NCBI RefSeq assembly: GCF_022788695.1
Contig: NZ_CP085154.1
Span: forward strand, 2,294,001-2,358,000
Reading direction: 5' to 3'
DNA length: 64,000 nucleotides
From: Pseudosulfitobacter sp. DSM 107133
GTDB taxonomy: Bacteria; Pseudomonadota; Alphaproteobacteria; Rhodobacterales; Rhodobacteraceae
The first letter of the stretch is position 1. Every line of letters begins with the position of its first letter. A model generated the notes under the pieces. It made no database searches, had not been told where the DNA came from, and worked only from the letters and a program-made list of their open reading frames with translations. Both the position numbers and the translations under genes were made by a program. Shown in pieces: positions 4,218-62,640 of this stretch.

Positions 4218-4294
<77 letters not shown>

Positions 4295-26930: not shown

Positions 26931-27845
26931 ATGGGTGCTTTGGTATTTATCCTGCCCGGCCTGCTGCTGAGCTGGGGCATTTTTGAATTGATCGACAACA
27001 ATAATGATGACGATGACAACCAGGAGATCAACGGCACCGAACAAGCCGATGATCTGGACGGCAAGAACGGCAATGACCTGATCAATGGCGGCGCCGGCAA
27101 TGACAACATCGAAGGCGGCAGTGGTGCAGACAGTCTGCGCGGTGATGACGGCGATGATGTGATCTTTGGCCAGCAGGGCGATGATGACATCGACGGCGGC
27201 GCGGGCGATGACGCCATTGTGGCCGGACGGGGCGCTGACACCGCGCATGGCGGCGCAGGCGACGACTGGGTCGAGGGCGATCAGGGCGACGACACGCTGG
27301 ACGGTGACGCGGCCCACGATCTGCTGCTGGGCGGCAACGGGGCCGACACCCTGTCGGGTGGCACAGGTGACGATCTGTTGGTTGGTGGCAGGGTCAGCGG
27401 CCTGCCGCTGTCGTTCGAGCAGATGAAGATGCTGCGCGAAGGTGCCACGGTCGAGGATTTCGAGGACGAGATACCCCCCAGCACCTTCCAGTTGCGCGAT
27501 GATGGCGATGTTGATGTGCTGAACGGTGGTGACGGTGCTGACGCCCTGTTTCTGGGTGCCGGTGACATTGGCGACGGCGGCGCGGGCATTGACGACTATA
27601 TGATTTTGCAGAACCAGATTGGCGACGCCGGCCCTGCGATTGTACAAACCTTTGAAGACGACGAGGCCATCGGGGTTTTGTCCAACAGTGCCATTGACCC
27701 GGACATCACGGTCGACACCGATGGCGACGACGCGCTGGTGCTGGCGGATGATGTGATCGTGGCACGGGTGCTTGGCGCGGCAGGCCGCATCGATGCCTCT
27801 GACATCTTTGTCTACAACACCTCGGCAATCTATACGCTGGGCTGA
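26931..27845 (+). CDS. RTX-type calcium-binding repeat protein
   Basis: 304 very acidic residues. A hydrophobic N-terminus (MGALVFILPGLLLSWGIFELI) is followed by an Asp/Asn run and then glycine-rich nonapeptide repeats of the GGxGxDxLx type at about residues 36-150 (GGAGNDNIEGGSGADSLRG, GGTGDDLLVGG) and again around 195-215 (LNGGDGADALFLG). These bind calcium and form a beta-roll. The C-terminal 90 residues have no repeat. An ATG with GGGGAAA upstream starts it. Such proteins are often exported, but no secretion genes are adjacent. Role unknown. Confidence 0.85.
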   Translation: MGALVFILPGLLLSWGIFELIDNNNDDDDNQEINGTEQADDLDGKNGNDLINGGAGNDNIEGGSGADSLRGDDGDDVIFGQQGDDDIDGGAGDDAIVAGRGADTAHGGAGDDWVEGDQGDDTLDGDAAHDLLLGGNGADTLSGGTGDDLLVGGRVSGLPLSFEQMKMLREGATVEDFEDEIPPSTFQLRDDGDVDVLNGGDGADALFLGAGDIGDGGAGIDDYMILQNQIGDAGPAIVQTFEDDEAIGVLSNSAIDPDITVDTDGDDALVLADDVIVARVLGAAGRIDASDIFVYNTSAIYTLG

Positions 27846-27897: not shown

Positions 27898-27920
27898 AGC
27901 CCAGAGTTACCTCACAACAC

Positions 27921-28067
27921 AGGGCAACGCCCGACCGCGGGTGGGCATCACCACATGGGTGGATGCCCCTTAATTTCTATGCTTTGGCGTGGGGATGAAG
28001 AAACGCAATACAGCGAAGAAGCGCCCGCCCATGGGGCGGTCGGGCGCTGCCCGGCGGCACTGCGTGC
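27921..28067 (+). repeat. Dispersed repeat family R1, left part of copy R1a (interrupted by IS110 copy 1)
   Basis: Reads AGGGCAACGCCCGACCGCGGGTGGGC, a diverged middle, then a palindrome (arms GCGCCCG/CGGGCGC at 28021-28047) and a small hairpin GGCAC-TGC-GTGCC directly before the IS110 end. The same order is found at 32636-32781 and, inverted and uninterrupted, at 49365-49603. The right-hand remainder resumes at 29229 (ATTCCGGGCTT). Confidence 0.78.
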
Positions 28068-28089
28068 CTTGTCTCAGACTTTCCGTGGC

Positions 28090-28262
28090 TCTTCTGCGAA
28101 GGTGGAGCCGGTGCCAGCCACCTTTTGGATCGCAGGCACCGGCGACGGGTGGATCGTCTGCGGCCAGGTCTTCGAGGACCGTAATCAAGTGAGATCGCCC
28201 GTCGTCTTCGCATGAGGCCTGAACGGATACGCAGCAGCTCACAGGCTCTGCACGACAAGCAA
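28090..28262 (+). ncRNA. Predicted IS110 bridge RNA, copy 1
   Basis: The leader folds by eye as a bridge RNA. A 5' hairpin CCGGTGCC (28108-28115) / GGCACCGG (28135-28142). A first internal loop is closed by GGG..GATC/GATC..CCC and by GGTC-TTCGAG-GACC; its left strand TGCGGCC (28159-28165) resembles the target's left side and its right strand AATCAAG (28183-28189) is complementary to target CTTGATT. A second loop is closed by CATG..CCT/AGG.CATG and by GCAG/CTGC; its left strand ACGGATAC (28223-28230) equals the element's right end and its right strand GACAAG (28254-28259) is complementary to its left end CTTGTC. RNA boundaries are approximate. Confidence 0.75.
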
Positions 28263-28267
28263 AGGAC

Positions 28268-29212
28268 ATGACGAAGATGATCAACGATACCATCGGCATC
28301 GACATCTCGAAAGCGCATCTTGACGCGCACCGGCTCAGCACCGCAACCCACGCCCGGTTCGACAATACCGCGACAGGCCTGCGCGCCTTCGAGCGCTGGT
28401 TGGGGCAGACAACGCCGGAGCGCGTGGTCTTCGAGCCCACCGGCCCCTACCACCGACGCCTCGAGAGCCATTTCTCAGGCCGCCTGCCGCTCGTCAAGGT
28501 GAACCCGCTGCAGGCCCGCCGCTTCGCGCAGGCCCACGGCACACGCGCTAAGACCGACGCGGTCGATGCCCGCATGCTCGCGCTCATGGGGCGCGCGCTG
28601 GAGCTGGTTCCGGACCAGCCAACCGACCCCAAACAGCGTGAAATCAAGGAGTTGCATGTCGCCCGCACCGGGCTGGTGCGGGATCGTACCGCGCTGATGA
28701 ACCGCCTTGGCACGCAACAGCTCGACGTGACCCGCCGCCTGACCCGGGCACGCCTGCGTCAGGTCAACCACCAGATCGACAGGCTTAACGCCGAAATCGA
28801 ACGGCGAAACCGCGATTGCCCGGAACGCGCCAGGGCAATCGGCATTCTCACCTCGATCCCCGGGATCGGTGCCATCACCGCACGGGCGCTGCTCAGCGAA
28901 TGCCCCGAGATCGGCACTCTGGGGTCAAAGCAGATCGCGGCGCTCGCAGGTCTCGCGCCGATCACGTGTCAGTCCGGTCAGTGGAGCGGAAAGGCCCACA
29001 TCCAGGGCGGGCGCAGGCTCCTGCGCGAGAGCCTGTTCATGCCCGCCCTCGTCGCCATGAAGCGAAACCCCGATCTGAGCCAGAAATACGATGCCCTCAG
29101 AGCCGCCGGAAAACCCCACAAGGTCGCGCTCGCCGTCCTCATGCGAAAACTCCTGATCCTCGCAAACACTCTCATAAGCGAAAACAGAGAATGGACACCA
29201 AAACACCCTTGA
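28268..29212 (+). CDS. IS110-family transposase (DEDD recombinase), copy 1
   Basis: 314 residues. An N-terminal RuvC-like domain with the DEDD set Asp12 (GIDISKAHLD), Glu56 (VVFEPTGPY), Asp97 and Asp100 (KTDAVDARML); a coiled middle; and the C-terminal Tnp_20 domain with SIPGIGAITARALLSE, AGLAPITCQSGQWSGK and GGRRLLRESLFM, which carries the serine used in strand exchange in this family. It recombines DNA guided by the bridge RNA encoded just upstream. A second ATG at 28277 (MINDTIGID) is a possible alternative start. Confidence 0.93.
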   Translation: MTKMINDTIGIDISKAHLDAHRLSTATHARFDNTATGLRAFERWLGQTTPERVVFEPTGPYHRRLESHFSGRLPLVKVNPLQARRFAQAHGTRAKTDAVDARMLALMGRALELVPDQPTDPKQREIKELHVARTGLVRDRTALMNRLGTQQLDVTRRLTRARLRQVNHQIDRLNAEIERRNRDCPERARAIGILTSIPGIGAITARALLSECPEIGTLGSKQIAALAGLAPITCQSGQWSGKAHIQGGRRLLRESLFMPALVAMKRNPDLSQKYDALRAAGKPHKVALAVLMRKLLILANTLISENREWTPKHP

Positions 29213-29259
29213 CCAAGACGGATACTTGATTCCGGGCTTTGGTATTTCGCAGCAGCCCG

Positions 29260-32532: not shown

Positions 32533-32635
32533 GCGGACCTTATAGGCCCGCAGGCGTCGCCTCACAATCCGCAGTGGGTGGCGTCGTCATTGTGTCGCAT
32601 CAGATTTGTGTGGGGGGGCGTGACATTCCCACAGA

Positions 32636-32781
32636 GGGCAGCGCCTGACCGCGGGTGGGCATCGAAACGTCAGTGGATGCCACTTTATTTCTAATCTTTG
32701 GGGTGTGGGTGAAGAGGTGCTAGCCGGTGAGAAAGCGCCCGCCCATGGGGCGGTCGGGCGCTGCCCGGCGGCACTGCGTGC
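32636..32781 (+). repeat. Dispersed repeat family R1, left part of copy R1b (interrupted by IS110 copy 2)
   Basis: Opens AGCGCCTGACCGCGGGTGGGC, then a diverged middle, then the same GCGCCCG/CGGGCGC palindrome and GGCAC-TGC-GTGCC hairpin as R1a. The insertion point is identical to that in R1a. The remainder (ATTCCGGGCTTGGGGGTTGGGG) resumes at 33943 and matches the uninterrupted copy at 49365-49603. Confidence 0.78.
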
Positions 32782-32803
32782 CTTGTCTCAGACTTTCCGT
32801 GGC

Positions 32804-32976
32804 TCTTCTGCGAAGGTGGAGCCGGTGCCAGCCACCTTTTGGATCGCAGGCACCGGCGACGGGTGGATCGTCTGCGGCCAGGTCTTCGAGGACCGTAATC
32901 AAGTGAGATCGCCCGTCGTCTTCGCATGAGGCCTGAACGGATACGCAGCAGCTCACAGGCTCTGCACGACAAGCAA
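32804..32976 (+). ncRNA. Predicted IS110 bridge RNA, copy 2
   Basis: Same sequence as the copy 1 leader; the target guides fall at 32873-32879 and 32897-32903 and the donor guides at 32937-32944 and 32968-32973. Confidence 0.72.
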
Positions 32977-32981
32977 AGGAC

Positions 32982-33926
32982 ATGACGAAGATGATCAACG
33001 ATACCATCGGCATCGACATCTCGAAAGCGCATCTTGACGCGCACCGGCTCAGCACCGCAACCCACGCCCGGTTCGACAATACCGCGACAGGCCTGCGCGC
33101 CTTCGAGCGCTGGTTGGGGCAGACAACGCCGGAGCGCGTGGTCTTCGAGCCCACCGGCCCCTACCACCGACGCCTCGAGAGCCATTTCTCAGGCCGCCTG
33201 CCGCTCGTCAAGGTGAACCCGCTGCAGGCCCGCCGCTTCGCGCAGGCCCACGGCACACGCGCTAAGACCGACGCGGTCGATGCCCGCATGCTCGCGCTCA
33301 TGGGGCGCGCGCTGGAGCTGGTTCCGGACCAGCCAACCGACCCCAAACAGCGTGAAATCAAGGAGTTGCATGTCGCCCGCACCGGGCTGGTGCGGGATCG
33401 TACCGCGCTGATGAACCGCCTTGGCACGCAACAGCTCGACGTGACCCGCCGCCTGACCCGGGCACGCCTGCGTCAGGTCAACCACCAGATCGACAGGCTT
33501 AACGCCGAAATCGAACGGCGAAACCGCGATTGCCCGGAACGCGCCAGGGCAACCGGCATTCTCACCTCGATCCCCGGGATCGGTGCCATCACCGCACGGG
33601 CGCTGCTCAGCGAATGCCCCGAGATCGGCACTCTGGGGTCAAAGCAGATCGCGGCGCTCGCAGGTCTCGCGCCGATCACGTGTCAGTCCGGTCAGTGGAG
33701 CGGAAAGGCCCACATCCAGGGCGGGCGCAGGCTCCTGCGCGAGAGCCTGTTCATGCCCGCCCTCGTCGCCATGAAGCGAAACCCCGATCTGAGCCAGAAA
33801 TACGATGCCCTCAGAGCCGCCGGAAAACCCCACAAGGTCGCGCTCGCCGTCCTCATGCGAAAACTCCTGATCCTCGCAAACACTCTCATAAGCGAAAACA
33901 GAGAATGGACACCAAAACACCCTTGA
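32982..33926 (+). CDS. IS110-family transposase, copy 2
   Basis: 314 residues, intact, identical to copy 1 except Thr for Ile at residue 189. All DEDD residues and the C-terminal serine region are present, so it is predicted functional. Confidence 0.93.
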   Translation: MTKMINDTIGIDISKAHLDAHRLSTATHARFDNTATGLRAFERWLGQTTPERVVFEPTGPYHRRLESHFSGRLPLVKVNPLQARRFAQAHGTRAKTDAVDARMLALMGRALELVPDQPTDPKQREIKELHVARTGLVRDRTALMNRLGTQQLDVTRRLTRARLRQVNHQIDRLNAEIERRNRDCPERARATGILTSIPGIGAITARALLSECPEIGTLGSKQIAALAGLAPITCQSGQWSGKAHIQGGRRLLRESLFMPALVAMKRNPDLSQKYDALRAAGKPHKVALAVLMRKLLILANTLISENREWTPKHP

Positions 33927-34008
33927 CCAAGACGGATACTTGATTCCGGGCTTGGGGGTTGGGGTCCGCGTTGGAGGATACCGCCATGAGCGGCAGTTTG
34001 TCGTCCCC

Positions 34009-35893: not shown

Positions 35894-35909
35894 CAAGTAT
35901 CCGTCTTGG

Positions 35910-36854
35910 TCAAGGGTGTTTTGGTGTCCATTCTCTGTTTTCGCTTATGAGAGTGTTTGCGAGGATCAGGAGTTTTCGCATGAGGACGGCGAGCGCGACC
36001 TTGTGGGGTTTTCCGGCGGCTCTGAGGGCATCGTATTTCTGGCTCAGATCGGGGTTTCGCTTCATGGCGACGAGGGCGGGCATGAACAGGCTCTCGCGCA
36101 GGAGCCTGCGCCCGCCCTGGATGTGGGCCTTTCCGCTCCACTGACCGGACTGACACGTGATCGGCGCGAGACCTGCGAGCGCCGCGATCTGCTTTGACCC
36201 CAGAGTGCCGATCTCGGGGCATTCGCTGAGCAGCGCCCGTGCGGTGATGGCACCGATCCCGGGGATCGAGGTGAGAATGCCGGTTGCCCTGGCGCGTTCC
36301 GGGCAATCGCGGTTTCGCCGTTCGATTTCGGCGTTAAGCCTGTCGATCTGGTGGTTGACCTGACGCAGGCGTGCCCGGGTCAGGCGGCGGGTCACGTCGA
36401 GCTGTTGCGTGCCAAGGCGGTTCATCAGCGCGGTACGATCCCGCACCAGCCCGGTGCGGGCGACATGCAACTCCTTGATTTCACGCTGTTTGGGGTCGGT
36501 TGGCTGGTCCGGAACCAGCTCCAGCGCGCGCCCCATGAGCGCGAGCATGCGGGCATCGACCGCGTCGGTCTTAGCGCGTGTGCCGTGGGCCTGCGCGAAG
36601 CGGCGGGCCTGCAGCGGGTTCACCTTGACGAGCGGCAGGCGGCCTGAGAAATGGCTCTCGAGGCGTCGGTGGTAGGGGCCGGTGGGCTCGAAGACCACGC
36701 GCTCCGGCGTTGTCTGCCCCAACCAGCGCTCGAAGGCGCGCAGGCCTGTCGCGGTATTGTCGAACCGGGCGTGGGTTGCGGTGCTGAGCCGGTGCGCGTC
36801 AAGATGCGCTTTCGAGATGTCGATGCCGATGGTATCGTTGATCATCTTCGTCAT
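35910..36854 (-). CDS. IS110-family transposase, copy 3
   Basis: 314 residues, protein identical to copy 2 and intact. It lies between ccmE and argC in the direction of those genes. Confidence 0.93.
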   Translation of the reverse strand: MTKMINDTIGIDISKAHLDAHRLSTATHARFDNTATGLRAFERWLGQTTPERVVFEPTGPYHRRLESHFSGRLPLVKVNPLQARRFAQAHGTRAKTDAVDARMLALMGRALELVPDQPTDPKQREIKELHVARTGLVRDRTALMNRLGTQQLDVTRRLTRARLRQVNHQIDRLNAEIERRNRDCPERARATGILTSIPGIGAITARALLSECPEIGTLGSKQIAALAGLAPITCQSGQWSGKAHIQGGRRLLRESLFMPALVAMKRNPDLSQKYDALRAAGKPHKVALAVLMRKLLILANTLISENREWTPKHP

Positions 36855-36859
36855 GTCCT

Positions 36860-37032
36860 TTGCTTGTCGTGCAGAGCCTGTGAGCTGCTGCGTATCCGTT
36901 CAGGCCTCATGCGAAGACGACGGGCGATCTCACTTGATTACGGTCCTCGAAGACCTGGCCGCAGACGATCCACCCGTCGCCGGTGCCTGCGATCCAAAAG
37001 GTGGCTGGCACCGGCTCCACCTTCGCAGAAGA
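36860..37032 (-). ncRNA. Predicted IS110 bridge RNA, copy 3
   Basis: Reverse-strand copy of the leader. The target guides fall at 36957-36963 (TGCGGCC) and 36933-36939 (AATCAAG), the donor guides at 36892-36899 and 36863-36868. Here the left target (TTCGGC before CT) fits the left guide (TGCGGC) better than in copies 1 and 2. Confidence 0.72.
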
Positions 37033-37054
37033 GCCACGGAAAGTCTGAGACAAG

Positions 37055-37260
37055 GCCGAAGGCCGCCGCACATCGACGGGCCGCCCCACGGCACGGCGAT
37101 TTGGCTGCTGTTGTGTGGAACAGATAGGTCGTAGGTGTTTGGCTGCCATTAAGTGGCAGACACAGCTGTAGGATCGCCGCACCTCGGCCCGTCGATGCGC
37201 GGCTTCATGCTTTTTGCAAAAGGCAGAAAAGTCCGCGCACCCGCCTTTGACCCGAACTGC
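37055..37260 (-). repeat. Dispersed repeat family R2, proximal part of copy R2a (interrupted by IS110 copy 3)
   Basis: Aligns closely with the reverse orientation of 62400-62566: shared GGCAGCCAAA, CAGCAGCCAAATCGCCGTGCCG, GATG-GCGGCGGCC and the GGCC-TTC-GGCC hairpin abutting CTTG. A short frame on the minus strand (MAAKHLRPIC...QQPNRRA) is shared with R2b. It fills the gap between IS110 copy 3 and argC. Confidence 0.75.
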
Positions 37261-44676: not shown

Positions 44677-45012
44677 CCATGCATGAATTGCATAGCGGCC
44701 ATTCCTGCGGGCGTTCACATTCTGCCTTGTTTGGCAGCAACGCTGCACCTAAATCGGTCTCGAAGGCGATGATCGCTTCTGGCGCATCATCTTCATACCT
44801 CCCTGTTGGACTTGGCCGAGCTTTATGCTCGGCCTTTTTTTTGGCCCGGATCCGGGCGCAATACCGGTTCATGCCGCGCTTGTAACCGGGCCTGCCCCTC
44901 CAACGGTTCGCGCCCTCCCTTGCATGTTTTCCCGAGTAGCACCGAACGCGCGCAATGCGTTCAGAGATGTTTTGTTCCGCCTTTCACGAAAAATTTTTCT
45001 GAAAAAACAATA
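44677..45012. other. Intergenic region with terminator, possible small RNA
   Basis: No convincing protein gene. The first 137 bases after the LysR stop run to a strong terminator (44814-44842), and could encode a small RNA or simply be the lysR 3' end. After it come a 14-base palindrome (GCCCGGATCCGGGC, about 44845) and an AT-rich tract leading into the promoter at 45013. Confidence 0.5.
44814..44842 (+). terminator. Intrinsic terminator downstream of lysR
   Basis: GGCCGAGC - TTTAT - GCTCGGCC followed by eight T. A strong rho-independent terminator on the plus strand. Confidence 0.92.
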
Positions 45013-49364: not shown

Positions 49365-49603
49365 GCCAGCCCCACCCACCAAGCCCGGAATCAAGGTGCG
49401 TAGCACCGCCGGCCTCTCGGTGTTCGCAAAGCGAACACCTGCCGGCAACACATTGCTTTGCAATGTGTGAGAGGCAGCGCCCGACCGCCCCATGGGCGGG
49501 CGCTTCTTCACCGTCTTGCGATTCAGCAGCCCCACGCCAAGGCATTGAAATTAAGTGGTTTGAACCAAGGTATCGGCGCCCACCCGCGGTCAGGCGCTGC
49601 CCT
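49365..49603 (-). repeat. Dispersed repeat family R1, uninterrupted copy (R1c)
   Basis: On the minus strand: AGCGCCTGACCGCGGGTGGGC, GCGTGGGGCTG, the GCGCCCG/CGGGCGC palindrome, an extra hairpin ACACATTGC-TTT-GCAATGTGT and a second GTTCGC/GCGAAC hairpin, then GGTGCTACGCACCTTGATTCCGG in two pieces and GTGGGTGGGGCTGG. The CTTG at 49392-49395 is the unoccupied IS110 target. It sits directly beside the 3' end of the CoxE gene. Confidence 0.78.
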
Positions 49604-49612
49604 ATGTGGCGC

Positions 49613-62385: not shown

Positions 62386-62640
62386 AAAGCCGCCGTTCAC
62401 AAACGACCGCGAAGCCGCGCATTGACGGGCCGTGGTGCGGCGATCCGACCGTCGTGCATGGCACTTTATGGCAGCCAAATACATCCGAACTAACTGTTAC
62501 ACACTACAGCAGCCAAATCGCCGTGCCGGCGGACGGCCCGGCGATGCGCGGCGGCCTTCGGCCTTGACTCCGCGCAAAGGGAAGAACTGACAGGGCTAAA
62601 ACCTGACATTCTTTGCGATCTGCACCAAGGTCCATTCAGC
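62386..62640 (+). repeat. Dispersed repeat family R2, uninterrupted copy (R2b)
   Basis: The whole gap between dnaB and alr is mostly this repeat. It aligns with R2a on both sides of IS110 copy 3, and carries the intact target GGCC-TTC-GGCCTTGACTCCGCG with CTTG at 62563-62566. It also contains a short frame starting ATGGCAGCC (MAAKYIRT ... QQPNRRA) shared with R2a. Confidence 0.75.

Follow-up and report, generated by a model that had tools for sequence, protein, structure and literature searches.

What determines the sites at which a mobile element settles is the question raised by the 64-kb stretch of DNA analysed here (the window), in which an element of the IS110 group is found three times, with left cores CT at 28068, 32782 and, on the minus strand, 37054. 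The initial annotation had recognised these three copies, had read the leader of the first one as a complete bridge RNA and had concluded that its target specificity could be predicted from sequence alone. The 5.2-Mb genome as a whole carries 18 full copies, of which 12 are letter-identical between the ends, the others differing at 1-2 of 4 variable positions. These 18 near-identical copies, together with the countable empty sites, provide a natural read-out of bridge RNA specificity.

The flanks of the 18 copies switch exactly at the element ends, which read CT-TGTCTC...GACGGATA-CT with a core-to-core distance of 1157 nt, and the junctions are constant (CT on the left and CTTGATT on the right, each in 18/18 copies). 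The leader between left core and start codon is 200 nt long, and 12 nt separate the stop codon from the right core. The site occupied by the copy L018 is uninterrupted and of equal length in 5/5 congeners, all of which read CTGGC there, and that of the copy L017 is uninterrupted and of equal length in 1/5 congeners. As in other members of the IS110 group, a long leader upstream of the recombinase is combined with a short right end, and a CT core is used without target duplication; the RNA lies upstream and not in the right end, where the IS1111 group carries it. The initial annotation had invoked two empty sites to fix the ends. Two unoccupied repeats were detected in the window: that at 62411-62570 does span the junction but reads CTTGACTCC and not CTTGATTCC, and the second one, at 49473-49607, diverges ahead of it. 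Class A targets (defined below) with CTTGATTCC are present unoccupied elsewhere in the genome, e.g. CGGCACTGCGTGCCTTGATTCCG. The features of the locus are collected in Table 1.

Table 1. Coordinates of the element copies, their repeats and the parts of copy 1 in the window.
Feature	Position	Strand	Evidence or remark
Left portion of a class A repeat, with the target of copy 1 (CTGCGTGC ahead of CT)	27906..28067	+	27906-28205 is 90% like 32620-32919; this 300-nt match includes about 140 nt of the element itself
Element copy 1	28068..29226	+	Left core CT 28068-28069, right core CT 29225-29226
Bridge RNA, target-binding and donor-binding hairpins	28136..28277	+	Covariance model; compensatory changes
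Left target guide UCUGCGGC plus core-side CA, loop reading UCUGCGGCCA	28157..28166	+	5' side of the variable first loop
Right target guide AAUCAAG, complement of CTTGATT	28183..28189	+	CTTGATT after the element in 18/18 copies
Left donor guide ACGGAUAC, identical to the element right end ACGGATA-C	28223..28230	+	Sequence; kept in relatives
Right donor guide GACAAG, complement of the left-end CTTGTC	28254..28259	+	Sequence
IS110 recombinase, 314 aa	28268..29212	+	PF01548, PF02371; phmmer matches ISCro4 9t56, IS621 8wt6
TTGACC, candidate -35 box overlapping the stop codon	29209..29214	+	Would face a -10-like hexamer at 17 nt only once the circle ends are joined
Element copy 2 (L006), inside a class A repeat	32782..33940	+	Right end set by length; bridge RNA 32850-32991
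Element copy 3 (L016), inside a class B repeat, left target CTTCGGC	35896..37054	-	Right end set by length; bridge RNA 36845-36986
Unoccupied class B repeat, unfit right half CTTGACTCC	62411..62570	+	86% complementary to 37047-37206

The recombinase combines the DEDD (RuvC-like) and Tnp domains of the IS110 group (PF01548, 1e-21; PF02371, 1.3e-17), and D12, E56, D97, D100 and S236, numbered by eye, are presumably its catalytic residues. Among solved structures its top sequence match is ISCro4 (PDB 9t56; phmmer, E 7.5e-33), a likeness that concerns the protein comparison alone. When the ends of the elements are joined as in a circle, TTG is found near the right end in 36/36 rows, some of which represent one and the same element, and TAT follows at 17 nt in 28/36; from their letters, these two motifs would resemble a promoter. 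The second hexamer at the circle junction of our own element, CAGACT, is weak, and its promoter is a candidate for the rebuilding upon excision that PMC11208160 reports for IS621.

The leader was compared with those of related elements, 59 loci having been found by protein, while 58/394 genomes gave some match by DNA, many of them short. Alignment A1 contained the window leader and 43 leaders of relatives, with recombinases showing 43-61% identity in the matched part; it left out the leaders L106, L051, L113, L086 and L126 and near-duplicates (>93%), and alignment A2 additionally left out the window and L077. RNAalifold folded the window leader and those of its relatives into the same two hairpins. 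In this structure, which was derived from the same alignment A1 on which it was tested, compensatory double changes are seen in 15/24 pairs (44 leaders), 96.9% of the cells are paired compared to 84.7% after shuffling, and 139 cells are doubly changed compared to 43.8. When the partner was shifted by 1-3 columns, the paired cells fell from 96.9% to 33-56%. Of five covariation measures, four were higher than in any of the 500 shuffles; the remaining one, the number of further pair types, was not clearly above them (34 versus 31.1, with 54/500 shuffles as high). The covariance model R1, built from 42 relatives with the window excluded, scored the leader at 107.7 bits (E 1e-27) and matched the three copies of the window and nothing else in the 64 kb at E up to 10. 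At E <= 1e-5 it matched 15/385 sampled genomes of the class and 39/394 of the family, our own genome being included in both; the genomes of relatives are samples, their loci were drawn from part of the matches and the scored rows per genome give a lower bound. The initial annotation had proposed to look for a structure shared by related elements, and the common two-hairpin fold bears its reading out.

Both internal loops are present in the minimum-energy fold of 28140-28290. The folding energy itself is not unusually stable (z -1.20 for 28140-28290 and z -1.81 for 28066-28300); plain folding energy, not being significant, was dropped as support, and the structure was accepted because of its conservation. 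No Rfam family was detected at the leader when the 64-kb window was searched with cmscan at the gathering score; elsewhere in the window, SorX sRNA and tRNA were matched, at 44772-44840 (+) and 4221-4294 (-). As in the IS110 group, each of the two conserved hairpins has an internal loop, the first variable and the second conserved: by eye, variation between the conserved stems is greatest on the two sides of the first loop, and the guide segments of the second are nearly invariant, a pattern also described for IS621 in PMC11208160. The bridge RNA probably begins upstream of these hairpins and includes a 5' stem-loop.

The second hairpin extends into the start codon at 28268, as might be expected if the leader were an ordinary structured 5' UTR controlling transposase translation and the matches of its loops were due to chance. 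Such an explanation is hardly credible, because the loops vary with the targets across relatives and the stems are kept by compensatory changes. A regulatory role may exist beside the bridge function.

Both internal loops hold the guides that had been proposed, UCUGCGGCCA and AAUCAAG in the first and ACGGAUAC and GACAAG in the second. The first loop agrees with the left target on its 5' side and with the right target on its 3' side, and the second with the circle junction. The right donor guide agrees with the left end in 61/64 rows (some elements being present twice), partly by construction since left ends were located by the loose pattern CTT[GCA]T...; three of the 61 rows read GAGAAG/CTTCTC, and in three relatives, two of them mutually close, the right donor guide GAGAAG pairs with the left end CTTCTC. 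The initial annotation had correctly given the loop order (target, then donor), the CT core and the strands with which the guides agree; these features, like the position of the RNA in the 5' leader, are shared with IS621 of E. coli (PMC11208160, PMC11208158).

To compare guides and targets across relatives, the ends of the elements were found from terminal motifs and the flanks were then compared with the guides read from alignment columns; whether the left guide was placed 7 or 8 nt before the core (its register) followed a rule devised once the data were known. The leaders L106, L051, L113, L126 and L096, unparsed leaders, elements lacking a found end and repeated pairs were left out of these counts. 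The right guide matched its target at 3.83/5 positions beyond CT, compared to 1.66 after shuffling (sd 0.18; 0/10000 as high; 35 pairs including the window), and the left guide at 4.04/7 positions, compared to 2.22 (sd 0.17; 0/5000 as high; 48 pairs including the window). The right half of L050, L054 and L060 fits only 0-1 of 5, and in 38/76 pairs of relatives the left half fits neither ungapped (at least n-2) nor solely with one target nucleotide skipped, indicating drift of the guides, misplacement of ends or less strict rules. The loops of relatives thus follow their insertion sites when taken as a set, as had been anticipated, and not for every element.

Sorted by the letters at the site, the 18 insertions of our own genome comprise eight of class B, whose left target is CTGCGGC and once CTTCGGC, eight of class A, with CTGCGTGC and variants, and two elsewhere (L017 and L018). 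The left guide fits the eight class B targets ungapped, at 6-7 of 8 positions. All sites reading CTNCGGC-CTTGATT are occupied (8/8), whereas those with the left half only (CTNCGGCCTTG without ATT) are occupied in 0/71 cases, none of the 71 continuing as ATT. Sites containing GCCTTGATT are occupied in 16 cases and empty in 56; L008 and L017, in which the letters before CT are not GC, fall outside this table, leaving 16 of the 18 insertions. Occupancy amounts to 8/9 when the left half matches ungapped at 6 or more of 8 positions, to 8/16 when it matches only with one target nucleotide skipped, and to 0/47 when there is no left match of either kind. Compared to the other sites, both differences are marked (Fisher, p 6e-9 for ungapped and p 3e-6 for skipped matches), repeat copies not being independent. 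Counted as distinct left 12-mers, two ungapped, four skipped and none without match are occupied, and one, six and 34, respectively, are empty, two being found in both states. These results indicate that both guide halves matter and that the sites matching both of them ungapped are nearly all taken.

It could be argued that the left half is only loosely recognised and that the repeats, as hairpin-forming DNA, attract the element, given that 16/18 insertions lie inside the two repeat classes as judged by the letters beside the site. However, another repeat, around GAACCCAGTTTCGCATGCGCCTTGATTTGCGCCA, has the right half GCCTTGATT and no left half, and 0/14 of its copies are occupied (e.g. L193-L195). 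The 47 empty GCCTTGATT sites lacking a left match and the agreement of left guides and targets among relatives as a set also speak against this explanation, which we regard as improbable; L008, outside the table, is a counter-example, and would count in it as an occupied site without left match (5/8 at best, one skipped nucleotide included).

By contrast with the class B sites, at 10/18 insertions, including two of the three in the window, the left guide fits only 1-5 of 8 positions ungapped; skipping one target nucleotide raises the fit to 5-8 of 8. At the copy starting at 28068, the right half CTTGATT matches as the initial annotation stated, but the left target CTGCGTGC matches only 2/8 in register, which is no better than chance and was concealed by its notation 'xGC'; the match reaches 7/8 only when one target nucleotide is skipped. 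Both CTGGCGGC-CTTGATT and CTGCGTGC-CTTGATT are such longer target forms. The fit is 8/8 with the skip at L018, which like L017 lies outside both repeat families, and the presence of CTGGC in 5/5 congeners implies that the extra letter predates the insertion. The claim that specificity can be predicted from sequence alone consequently has to be qualified: the ungapped reading of both halves picks 8/18 insertions, the other 10 need the skipped nucleotide, and L008 fits just 5/8 even then.

The same form of target was found among relatives. Six of 76 distinct pairs (L053, L059, L068, L115, L135 and L317) fit only with one target nucleotide skipped, compared to 0.47 expected (0/4000 shuffles as high), and a smaller set gave 5/47, compared to 0.28 expected, these five being contained in the six; the window is absent from both counts. 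Irrespective of the register the count was again 6/76 (0.8 expected, 1/2000 shuffles as high). The limits of this category were set after looking at the sites, and the shuffle counts are to be taken as indicative. Pairs fitting only with an extra guide nucleotide were 0/76 (0.08 expected), so that the contrast between the two kinds is weak. The mean gain upon skipping was not significant (0.90 versus 0.78, 1189/5000 shuffles as high); this measure was judged wrong because pairs that match ungapped cannot gain, and was replaced by the above counts. In L017, L068, L115 and L135 the extra nucleotide adjoins the core, and may reflect a slip rather than a bulge.

A different origin of these sites would be a single entry into a class A repeat, followed by copying through homologous recombination or gene conversion, without any choice by a bulged guide. 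The class A repeats do share long left flanks around the insertion and the copies are almost identical, with 4 variable positions. To the right of the element, by contrast, only about 15 nt are strictly common, with looser likeness beyond, and four variants of the left half are occupied (CTGCGTGC, CTACGTGC, CTTCGTGC and CTACGCAC). Copying of class A would also not account for L017 and the perfectly fitting L018, outside both families, nor for the six pairs of relatives, and we consider it unlikely. It is probable that the bridge RNAs of this group regularly accept a target 1 nt longer than the left guide, through a bulge on the DNA side or a slip, that our own element thereby occupies its second repeat family, and that the natural range is wider than the ungapped reading indicates. 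Tolerated target insertions are mentioned at off-targets of IS621 with engineered guides by Durrant et al. (PMC11208160), and regular use at natural sites was not found described in the open papers searched. Engineered guides had thus given a hint of this tolerance; what is new is that it is regularly used in nature. These targets suggest that one unpaired target nucleotide in the left half should be allowed for when off-targets of bridge recombinases are predicted.

Taken together, the anatomy, the conserved structure, the guide-target agreement, the occupancy and the uninterrupted sites of equal length in relatives indicate that this is almost certainly an IS110-group member of the IS621 / ISCro4 type, whose leader makes a bridge RNA that guides insertion and tolerates one extra target nucleotide. 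By analogy with the findings of PMC11208160 and PMC11208158, the RNA would be expressed, pair and support recombination as follows. The donor loop would pair where the two ends meet in the excised circle, GACGGATA-CT-TGTCTC; in the target loop, the left guide CUGCGGC would pair with the bottom strand and the right guide AAUCAAG with the top strand around the CT core, and the recombinase would insert the circle at CT, leaving the target unduplicated. A close match would be needed in the right half and the core; the left half would have to match too, with one unpaired extra target nucleotide tolerated as a bulge or as a one-step slip at the core. Since fitting sites lie mostly in two dispersed repeat families, the element would have spread to 18 places.

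Several described systems resemble it. IS621 likewise inserts frequently into dispersed repeats and is described with a right target guide of 4 nt (PMC11208160, PMC11208158), compared to 7 nt including the core here. In the seekRNA elements of the IS1111 and IS110 types (PMC11187229), the RNA of a long non-coding region also selects the target; this region is upstream in the IS110 type, whereas in the IS1111 type it is usually downstream and long subterminal inverted repeats are present. Unlike IS621, our element carries the guides UCUGCGGC and AAUCAAG, and in 10/18 cases its natural target is better matched by the left guide if one extra nucleotide is allowed. ISPpu9 is an element of the IS110 family. 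It is among the elements inserted in REP sequences (PMC8450116, PMC1525189), which share insertion into dispersed palindromic repeats with our element; the likeness concerns the insertion habit. The bridge RNA family thus gains a new member that is ordinary but very clear and has unusually informative natural targets.

Additional observations were made beside these results. At 26931-27845, just upstream of the copy-1 repeat, an ORF contains GGxGxD-like repeats that by eye are of the calcium-binding type. Elements 97-98% identical to ours occur in P. pseudonitzschiae DSM 26824 (L049) and on a plasmid typed as conjugative in strain H46 (L161); they have one change in the left guide (CTGCAGC) and are inserted at CTGCGGC-CTTGATT. 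A second natural target series is provided by genome G240, with at least 8 copies of another element whose guide is CTTTGGG (L112, L289, L315-L320) and whose left halves read CTTCGGG, TTTTGGG, CTTTGGG, CTCTGGG and, with one nucleotide skipped, CTTTAAGG. In Azospirillum sp. B4, four copies (L064, L081, L085 and L102) have a common GTGATCGC upstream of the target, which resembles their left guide GTGACCG, yet seven letters off the core. Finally, genome G354 contains short remnants of related elements, L325 (about 962-1363) and L326, in which most of the transposase is gone and the bridge RNA is kept (74.7 and 49.2 bits); the right guide AATCAAG is unchanged and the left guide reads TTTCGCGC. The left flank of L325, TACCGCGC, and its right flank, CTCGATTCCGCG, closely resemble the class B repeat, and the left guide of these remnants may have changed together with the repeat.
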